A stretch of 64,000 nt of DNA from Actinomycetaceae bacterium MB13-C1-2 (GTDB lineage Bacteria > Actinomycetota > Actinomycetes > Actinomycetales > Actinomycetaceae), in the NCBI GenBank assembly GCA_035621235.1, contig CP141731.1, positions 310,001 through 374,000 of the forward strand. The letters are read 5' to 3'. The notes beneath the pieces are model-generated. The model was not told where the DNA came from and ran no database searches. It saw only the letters and a program-made list of their open reading frames with translations. Below, piece by piece: positions 20,010 through 54,989 of this stretch. A program made the translations under genes and the position numbers. Numbering within the stretch: position 1 is the first letter of the stretch; the number at the start of each line of letters is the position of its first letter.

Positions 20010-20134
20010 TTCGCTCTTTCGACGTATTGATAACGAAACTGCATCAATCCTATCTGTCCTGACTCATGACGACATGTGGCCCTTGCCCCACACTGCTCAT
20101 AACTGGGCCACCGAACCTGCCCCCGTATGAATCT

Positions 20135-20195
20135 CCAATCAGATCGGGGCTTCTTCGGGCCGAGAACACGGCGTGTCGTGCCCCGATCTGATTGG
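20135..20195. repeat. 61-bp palindromic element, copy 1
   Basis: Terminal arms of 16 bp (CCAATCAGATCGGGGC at 20135-20150, its exact complement at 20180-20195), with an inner stem GCCG-N6-CGGC inside the loop. It begins 11 bases after the stop of the polyprenyl diphosphate synthase gene. It aligns without gaps with copy 2 at 45456-45516 (46 of 61 identical by my count), and the flanks AATCT and CAAACG are also shared, but in the opposite orientation relative to the core. Confidence 0.85.
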
Positions 20196-20206
20196 CAAAC
20201 GCAGAA

Positions 20207-21220
20207 TTACGAGGCTCTATCCACCATCAGCATCGCGAAGGCAACCAGGGCGTCCTTGGCGTCGGACTCAGGAAGGGGCTCAAGGAACCCGACGGCGCGA
20301 TCAGCCCATGCCCGCGCAAGCTGACGAGTCTCCTCTAGAACCTCATGTTCCTTTAGCGCCCCGACAAGCACCGCAAGCGATTCATCCGAGGAGAGATCCC
20401 CCTGAAGCATTTCGAGGATCATCCGCCCATCCTCATCTATGGTTCCCTGGGCGGCATGCTTCTTAAGCAGGAGGATTGGCATTGTATCGACACCCTCACG
20501 GAGATCGGTCCCCGGCGTCTTCCCGGTGACCTCGGCAGGCGAAGCGATGTCAATAACGTCATCGGCCAGTTGGAAGGCAACTCCAACGGCCTCACCAAAG
20601 TCCTCTACCATCTGCGCTACCTCACGGCCCGCGCCGGAGTGAAATGCCCCAAAATGCGCCGCTGTCGCAACCAGAGAGCCAGTCTTGTCAGCAAGAACCT
20701 GTAAGTAGAAGTCGACCGGATCATCCTGGCCTCCCGGACCGAACGTTTCATTCAGCTGCCCGACACAGAGCCGTTCGAACATGTGAGCATGGTGTGCAAC
20801 CGTCTCAGGTCCCAGGTCTGCAATGAGTGCTGAAGCCCGCGCAAACAGCACGTCACCGGCCAAGATCGCCCGATTGTTGCCCCATATTCGCTGAGCCGAA
20901 TCAACGCCACGACGCGATGGAGCCGAATCCATAACATCATCGTGGTACAGGGACGCCAAGTGCGTGAGCTCGACGGCGGCCGCCGCCTCAATAACTGGCG
21001 TCGATAACGCCCGGTGCGGCGCACCGAGTTGACCACAGATTAGGGTCAGAAGCGGACGAAGCCTTTTCCCTCCGGCTTTCGCCAAGTGAGAAGTCAGGTC
21101 GTCCACTAGCCCCCTTGATCCGGAAACGGAGGACATCAAGAGTTCTTCGACCGCTTCCAGGCCACCTTCGACGTTTAGTTCAAGGGCGCCCTGAGCCAGT
21201 TGCTCACTCACATTGTTCAC
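20207..21220 (-). CDS. Polyprenyl diphosphate synthase (menaquinone side chain)
   Basis: Trans-prenyltransferase of 337 residues that chains isopentenyl diphosphate units into the isoprenoid tail. The two aspartate-rich motifs are YHDDVMDSAPSRRG (about 90-103) and QLADDVIDI (about 216), and GGKRLRP (about 49-55) binds the substrate phosphate. A location at the end of the nuo operon, overlapping the nuoN stop (GTGA), and near menG and menJ argues for a hepta- to nonaprenyl product for menaquinone (GrcC/HepT/IspB class). Chain length cannot be read reliably from the sequence. Confidence 0.92.
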   Translation of the reverse strand: MNNVSEQLAQGALELNVEGGLEAVEELLMSSVSGSRGLVDDLTSHLAKAGGKRLRPLLTLICGQLGAPHRALSTPVIEAAAAVELTHLASLYHDDVMDSAPSRRGVDSAQRIWGNNRAILAGDVLFARASALIADLGPETVAHHAHMFERLCVGQLNETFGPGGQDDPVDFYLQVLADKTGSLVATAAHFGAFHSGAGREVAQMVEDFGEAVGVAFQLADDVIDIASPAEVTGKTPGTDLREGVDTMPILLLKKHAAQGTIDEDGRMILEMLQGDLSSDESLAVLVGALKEHEVLEETRQLARAWADRAVGFLEPLPESDAKDALVAFAMLMVDRAS

Positions 21221-45431: not shown

Positions 45432-45455
45432 GCAATCCTCACACGTTCTCGTTTG

Positions 45456-45516
45456 CCAATCAGATAGGGGACTTTCTGGGCCGATTTTACGGCGTGTCAC
45501 CCTCCTATCTGATTGG
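45456..45516. repeat. 61-bp palindromic element, copy 2
   Basis: Same length and arms as copy 1 at 20135: CCAATCAGATAGGGG (45456-45470) pairs with the terminal 15 bases at 45502-45516, with one G-T wobble. Relative to copy 1, the C-G pair at positions 11/51 has become A-T, a compensatory change. The inner stem GCCG-N6-CGGC and the GTGTC after it are conserved. It begins 26 bases after the menC stop and ends 25 bases before the menD start. Confidence 0.85.
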
Positions 45517-45542
45517 AGATTGGGCCGGAAGGGAGGTTTCTT

Positions 45543-54975: not shown

Positions 54976-54989
54976 TCTCCAATCAGATC
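54976..54989. repeat. Half copy of the 61-bp element at the lysC ribosome binding site
   Basis: TCTCCAATCAGATC is identical over 14 bases to the left boundary of copy 1 (20132-20145). Nothing similar to the core or second arm follows. On the minus strand it supplies the GGAG four bases before the lysC ATG. Confidence 0.55.

Follow-up and report, generated by a model that had tools for sequence, protein, structure and literature searches.

The window analysed here, a stretch of 64,000 nucleotides (positions 310001–374000) in the single 2,578,609-bp contig of Actinomycetaceae bacterium MB13-C1-2 (G000), contains two 61-bp palindromic elements. They raise the question of what such elements are and what might spread them. 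A preliminary description of the window had located both, and the arms (CCAATCAGAT at one end, ATCTGATTGG at the other), the inner stem, and GGCGTGTC were confirmed in each (Table 1). Between the core of copy 1 and the 3' end of a minus-strand gene, which probably does not belong to the system described below, lie 11 bp. Its outer zone is pyrimidine-rich over about 20 bp on the left and purine-rich over 23 bp on the right.

Table 1. Coordinates of the palindromic elements and associated genes. Window numbering is used unless G000 is indicated.
Feature	Position	Strand	Remark
Copy 1, palindromic core, 61 bp	20135..20195	+	GGCGTGTC on + strand
Copy 1 including outer conserved zone	20115..20218 (limits approximate)	+	Column conservation, 57 copies
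Copy 2, palindromic core, 61 bp	45456..45516	+	
Copy 2 including outer conserved zone	45436..45539 (limits approximate)	+	Column conservation
Neighbour gene of copy 1, polyprenyl synthase according to the preliminary description	20207..21220	-	Synteny anchor only
Nuclease gene (L234), intact 346-aa frame	G000:1050305-1051345	-	Between two copies
Hairpin copy beside nuclease gene	G000:1050146-1050206	-	About 100 bp from gene
Hairpin copy beside nuclease gene	G000:1051500-1051560	+	About 155 bp from gene
Second nuclease homologue (L206)	G000:1317143-1317841		No flanking repeat

The exact-arm pattern CCAATCAGAT-N35..50-ATCTGATTGG occurs at 31 places in G000 and at none for the reversed control; therefore, the two elements belong to a hairpin family far above the chance level. 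A covariance model (R1) built from the alignment of these 31 copies gave 114 strand-wise matches at E ≤ 1, or 59 places by count, which clearly contradicts the idea, allowed for in the preliminary description, that only two copies exist. We studied 57 of the 59 places, with a weakest retained copy of 28.0 bits; the matches at 1774808 (31.9 bits) and 1247129 (17.5 bits, E 0.57, judged too weak) were omitted. Apart from position 8, the outer arm bases hardly vary, and conservation is also strong in the half-core GGCGTGTCG; the remainder is variable. The core begins with CCAATC and ends with GATTGG in nearly all 57 copies. Conservation fades about 20 bp to the left and about 23 bp to the right of the core, so that the conserved unit measures about 100 bp.

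The preliminary description had argued from one compensatory change that stem pairing is maintained, and the family bears this out. Both members of a Watson-Crick pair have changed in 24 cases, spread over arm positions 8, 9, 10, 11, and 15, and 458 of the 513 cells at positions 7–15 are paired, compared with 434.2 expected (sd 4.3; maximum 450 in 2000 shuffles), yet one-sided changes are present in 77 arm cells of the 57 copies. Outside the core, perfect copy-specific palindromic extensions of at least 12 bp were found in 6 of the 57 copies, against 0.09 expected from cross-pairing, and we read them as a probable product of template-switch correction. The first 6 bp outside the core pair above the shuffled level (1 of 5000 shuffles). 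The excess farther out is weak, being reached by 376, 214, 905, and 469 of 5000 shuffles in four zones (p about 0.04–0.18), and outer-stem pairing in the first 31 copies was significant in no zone. No obvious target duplication was seen by eye in the flanks to ±45 bp, the limits of the element being uncertain.

The flanks directly next to the core occur in a few forms. Most left flanks have TTG, TCT, or TTT as their last bases, and most right flanks have CAA, AGA, or AAA as their first; these alleles, about three per side, occur in many combinations among the 57 copies. Copies 1 and 2 carry opposite mixtures (AATCT-core-CAAACG and CGTTTG-core-AGATT). Therefore, the inversion of the core relative to its flanks, as first described, holds for the two window copies but not for the family. 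An invertible hairpin, which had also been proposed, is not needed because the flank alleles vary on each side, although the reciprocal classes TCT/CAA (n = 6) and TTG/AGA (n = 4) are compatible with it and may reflect inversion or two-way insertion. A lone exact arm CCAATCAGAT is present at 54979–54988 in the window, just upstream of the start of a minus-strand gene. It is preceded by TCT as in one flank allele, gives no R1 match, and is possibly a decayed copy.

The copies lie mainly at gene ends. According to simple ORF-based gene calls, a gene 3' end is located within 40 bp of 38 and within 60 bp of 41 of the 56 copies outside called genes, and the nearest gene end is a 3' end for 41 copies and a 5' end for 15. 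The 57 copies are placed between convergent (26), co-directional (27), or divergent (4) genes. Relative to the co-directional upstream gene, 12 copies are in the sense and 15 in the antisense orientation, showing no strand preference. The region within 600 kb of dnaA, which is located at 0.842 Mb in G000, contains 43 of the 57 copies, compared with 26.5 expected. The counts by strand differ between the two replichores, with 19+/5- in one and 15+/18- in its counterpart (Fisher p 0.014). Three copy pairs enclose genes that resemble housekeeping genes by eye. In L037 (908–1888) and L030 (2040–2786), the GTG of GGCGTGTCG opens frames into downstream genes (MSPPYVIG and MSLPYLIG); a copy might thus provide a gene with its start codon, though this may be merely mechanical. 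A regulatory role in the menaquinone pathway, suggested earlier from the neighbours of the window copies, is backed by just 2 of the 57 copies, some of the other neighbours having been read by eye, and is not retained.

In a set of 59 genomes, R1 had no match in the 58 others (5 of the same genus, 31 of the same family, and 22 of the same order), and, apart from G000, a search of 213 family genomes with stricter filters gave a single weak match, in G201. Behind the homologues of gene 20207–21220 at four same-genus loci, no such element was seen. Gaps between orthologous neighbours were compared with those in 400 kb sampled from the same-genus genome G001. Of 57 sites, 8 were usable; five others matched on both sides without synteny, the site at 948327 was dropped because 2,841 bp with other genes lay between the matches in G001, and one or both neighbours of the remaining sites were unmatched in the sampled 400 kb. 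The gap in G000 was longer at 8 of 8 comparable sites, by 91, 106, 111, 114, 121, 125, 140, and 215 bp, the differences at the sites of copies 1 and 2 being 140 and 114 bp, respectively. Gaps without the element (n = 36) had a median difference of -1 bp, and 4 of them differed by at least 90 bp; this control replaced one of 117 rows that held pieces of the same gene. The hairpin unit is therefore absent at the comparable sites of a relative, where the preliminary description had looked to empty sites for support. The absence could also mean loss because the proteins of G001 are only about 70% identical or less, and no insertion event was seen in the comparison of G000 with G001. In the G001 sample (L113–L132), 12-base words with CGCCCTCG or CGAGGGCG and GACGAGG neighbours are frequent.

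Viral contigs gave 0 matches. A search of GTDB contigs, which may omit records near the present genome, gave six stretches from Clostridiales/Lachnospiraceae with one palindrome each, which were judged unrelated on pattern alone. Above the Rfam gathering score, the window contained three tRNAs and no hairpin family, and eight element-bearing loci gave rRNA only.

Two copies in G000 enclose a nuclease gene, which is located 0.7 Mb from the window copies (Table 1). The sole Pfam match of its protein is MTES_1575, a family of Vsr-type restriction endonucleases according to Pfam, at 25.3 bits and thus below the cut-off of 38.2. Over 22 homologues, matches at E ≤ 0.01 were to MTES_1575 (14), DUF559 (13), RAP (5), and AbiEi_4 (3), and residues E228, D265, E276, G279, and R300 are invariant. 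PADLOC gave weak matches only (best E 0.0033), and NCBIfam gave nothing of weight. An AlphaFold2 model of the protein has a mean pLDDT of 89.1 and a pTM of 0.88. Its top Foldseek match is the catalytic domain of I-Bth0305I, with an E value of only 0.017 and a probability of 1.00. In VIA-align, residues 225–338 superimpose on I-Bth0305I (3r3p) with a Z score of 12.1 over 97 residues (rmsd 2.7), followed by 3hrl (Z 10.6) and Vsr (Z 10.3 for 1cw0 with residues 223–337, and 9.3); some mitoribosomal chains likewise reach a Z score of about 10. On the basis of the predicted model, the C-terminal part is a Vsr/I-Bth0305I endonuclease fold with invariant acidic residues. Residues ~13–232 resemble nucleotidyltransferase folds (MenT1, Z 9.8; MenT3, Z ~8.5), but the catalytic residues of nucleotidyltransferases are probably not kept there, as judged by eye. 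The N-terminal two thirds are thus MenT-like in the model, though Pfam gives AbiEi_4 in 3 of the 22 homologues. At E ≤ 0.001, Y1_Tnp (PF01797) has no match in G000, whereas 5 of 14 control genomes have matches. The REP/RAYT-like element of the preliminary description therefore stands as a dispersed non-autonomous hairpin that is absent at eight sites in G001, but without the RAYT/IS200-like transposase that was expected to accompany it.

In the genus g10, a homologous nuclease occurs together with hairpins that share the core and differ in the arms. The single match in G201 has the core CGGCGTGTCG-CGCCCCTA as in G000 and different arms, and the core CGGCGTGTCG-N2-CCCCTA recurs in g10 with other arms, the g10 element being GGGGGTTTTGCACCATTAG...CGGCGTGTCGCCGGCGTGTCG...CTAATGGTGCAATTCCCCC, with variants. 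Allowing one mismatch, the core was found in 25 of 213 family genomes. G000 has 34 matches and G083 has 6; apart from these two, all genomes with at least three matches belong to g10, namely, G179 (28), G199 (24), G201 (8), G014 and G184 (7 each), G191 and G202 (6 each), and G183, G196, and G198 (3 each). The ten of the 35 g10 genomes that have the nuclease (E ≤ 1e-60) are these same ten; of the 25 nuclease-free genomes, four have one core match and 21 have none. The cut of at least three was picked after the counts were known, and kinship among these related genomes is uncorrected in the comparison. A homologous 338-aa gene has copies on both sides in G014, G184, G191, G198, G199, G201, and G202. 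In G179 and G183, just one side of the nuclease has a core match nearby, and the match to the nuclease gene in G179 covers 217 of 338 residues and is thus incomplete. G196 has no core match near the nuclease, and its three matches lie far off. Samples of 200 kb per genome from two nuclease-free g10 genomes yielded no empty site of the nuclease cassette. Co-directional g10 copies are divided into 7 sense and 7 antisense, with poor gene calls in this genus.

Two further observations concern these matches. Several g10 copies (L174–L195, in G179 and G199) share long flanks past the hairpin, such as tgagggagcatgacaccaggggtaatgg, as if they were parts of a larger composite repeat. In G083 (L184, L203, L204), the six matches have the near-core word CGGCGGGTCGTTCCCCTA, and the four examined have identical flanks; this looks like an unrelated multi-copy element.

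Homologues in other genera are flanked by repeats of differing sequence, about half of which can be folded into long hairpins, and not all of the flanking repeats are clear hairpins. G015, which represents a third genus, has an unrelated hairpin; searched against the whole genome, this repeat gave 41 matches, or 22 places by count, on 16 contigs, and the two best matches flank the nuclease homologue of G015. In 200-kb samples, G046 has one further repeat copy 80 kb off and G018 has two weaker partial copies. The samples of G020 and G043 showed no copies beyond the flanking ones, and the repeat flanking the nuclease in G001 had no further copy in 400 kb. G023 (L280, L213) has a local array of ~85-bp repeats around its homologue, for which palindromic structure is weakly predicted. 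With strict scoring (E ≤ 1e-5), a flanking repeat was found at 11 of 20 homologue loci, the discovery cases L234 (G000) and L205 (g10) included, compared with 4 of 367 controls (Fisher p 3e-13). It was absent at the other nine loci, L206 of G000 among them. The controls were size-matched genes from six genomes, while the homologue loci came from more genomes, and in the sampled stretch of G023 another homologue remained among the control genes. Ten of 30 homologue loci had been dropped before the count because of no recognisable gene at E ≤ 1e-3 (L217, L221, L227–L230), short frames (L214, L219), or a flank shorter than 300 bp (L215, L225). A first control in one genome gave 1 of 103 positives. 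Looser scoring gave 60 of 363 positive controls; because of this high background, the strict test alone was relied on.

The association between the hairpins and the nuclease is well supported, as are the existence of the family and its absence from the comparable sites. We favour, with somewhat better than even confidence, a REP/RAYT-like arrangement in which a dispersed hairpin repeat has as its partner a Vsr-fold endonuclease gene, of the PD-(D/E)XK/EDxHD type, flanked by copies. We infer that the nuclease spreads the hairpins. It would recognise the hairpin, the symmetric core being suited to a dimer and the asymmetric GGCGTGTCG giving polarity, and would cut the hairpin or its target; copies could then spread via repair of the cut. 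According to PMC3943268, the target on which I-Bth0305I dimerises is nearly 60 bp long; thus, the 61-bp palindrome is a plausible dimer site. A hydrolytic nuclease cannot join ends by itself. Gene ends would be the sites where insertion harms least. Arm pairing may persist because recognition is limited to copies that form a hairpin, possibly with help from template-switch correction of imperfect palindromes. Differently spelled hairpins paired with the nuclease in some relatives suggest a spreading repeat system that has not been described. A wider proposal, which we hold tentatively and at slightly under even odds, is that such systems, selfish or domesticated, are widespread in Actinomycetales. 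In each, a Vsr-fold nuclease with a nucleotidyltransferase-like domain would bind its own lineage-specific hairpin and copy it into gene ends, the enzyme and hairpin co-diverging along a second, non-HUH route for REP-like palindromes. If the nuclease does move the hairpins, REP-like spreading has more than one evolutionary origin; otherwise, the recurring coupling of a nuclease with dozens of gene-end hairpins calls for an explanation. The proposed match of enzyme to hairpin lends itself to a test.

Other explanations start from the same observations. The hairpins could act at the RNA level, in mRNA 3' ends, where a Vsr/RAP-fold protein would bind or cut them, serving as a regulator of RNA or as a factor in 3'-end processing, and control its own mRNA as well. 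The preference for gene 3' ends (38 of 56 copies within 40 bp; nearest end 3' in 41 and 5' in 15), the maintained arm pairing, and the RAP matches in 5 of 22 homologues agree with such a role, and the Vsr-like protein FASTKD4 is reported to act on an mRNA. However, recognition of RNA should be strand-specific, which is at odds with the 12 sense and 15 antisense copies, and the whole unit is absent from eight comparable G001 sites; we regard this explanation as unlikely. Bidirectional terminators or mRNA-stabilising hairpins under selection would account for the 26 convergent and 27 co-directional settings and for only 4 divergent ones, but would leave the cause of the shared sequence unexplained. 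By eye, no U-tract follows the hairpin in either direction, near-invariant ten-base arms are unnecessary for termination, and five same-genus genomes have no match. This makes a terminator or stabilising role distinctly improbable.

A short palindromic unit that is dispersed and absent in a relative resembles the known bacterial MITEs. An ordinary transposase, since lost or encoded elsewhere, might have moved it, and the nuclease would then be a bystander. However, the 100 arm matches listed of 160 included no conspicuous pair that could mark a full-length parent, and the pairing of nuclease and hairpin recurs in other genera with other hairpins; we regard this explanation, too, as unlikely, slightly more so than action at the RNA level. 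Alternatively, the nuclease could attack foreign DNA, with the chromosome marked or protected by the dispersed hairpins in a Chi-like manner. According to PMC3710099, predicted defence proteins include some with Vsr-type and MTES_1575 domains. The density of copies also rises near the origin, the stretch within 600 kb of dnaA having 43 of 57, compared with 26.5 expected. Such self-marking is the least probable of these explanations, and very much so, since there are only about 57 unevenly spread copies and the PADLOC matches are weak (best E 0.0033). The partnership of the dispersed hairpin with the Vsr-fold nuclease remains our preferred reading.

Several known systems share parts of this arrangement. 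Correia, ERIC, and RUP are MITE-like palindromes of bacteria. The present hairpins are like them in size range, palindromic structure, and intergenic dispersal, and differ in that no parent insertion sequence or target duplication was seen and a nuclease partner is present instead. Among the EDxHD/Vsr-like homing endonucleases, I-Bth0305I is the best fold match to the modeled nuclease (Z 12.1), and the size of its target is close to that of the 61-bp palindrome. In contrast to these enzymes, the nuclease gene of G000 showed no evident intron or intein context, the N-terminal part is nucleotidyltransferase-like in the model, and the abundant copies are small hairpins rather than the gene.

The closest parallel is with REP/REPIN sequences and RAYT (TnpA-REP). 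In the accessible text of PMC2817692, RAYTs are associated with palindromes, a flanked gene, lineage-specific pairs, and repeat abundance that tracks the gene. Here, too, dispersed extragenic palindromes and an enzyme gene flanked by cognate repeats were found, although the enzyme is different; in g10, 7 of 10 genes have repeats on both sides, 2 on one side, and 1 none near. Repeats and enzyme are likewise lineage-specific, and abundance follows the enzyme, at least three core matches being present in 10 of 10 g10 genomes with the nuclease and in 0 of 25 without it (cut chosen afterwards). Unlike RAYT, the enzyme is a predicted Vsr-fold, hydrolytic nuclease and not an HUH transposase, in keeping with the lack of a Y1 match in G000. 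The unit measures about 100 bp, whereas REPs measure 20–40 bp in the accessible text of PMC3733652, and its core ends in CCAATC/GATTGG without a GTAG or CGTC tag. The same source states that CGTC-tagged REPs, which have stems of 8–9 bp and carry their tag at the end, "apparently lack a dedicated transposase"; it reports them from five other phyla, and the word Actinobacteria is absent from its main text. The present hairpins are like these in being dispersed palindromes without a RAYT, and unlike them in having a candidate partner enzyme.

No description of a Vsr/DUF559 nuclease tied to dispersed palindromes was found in the titles and abstract beginnings of open-access literature. For some palindromic repeat families of bacteria, no enzyme is known, and here a partner of an entirely different nuclease fold is proposed. 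Judged by its arrangement alone, the system would count as a variant of REP/RAYT; we call it categorically new because its enzyme, its hairpins, and the chemistry it would need differ from those of REP/RAYT.
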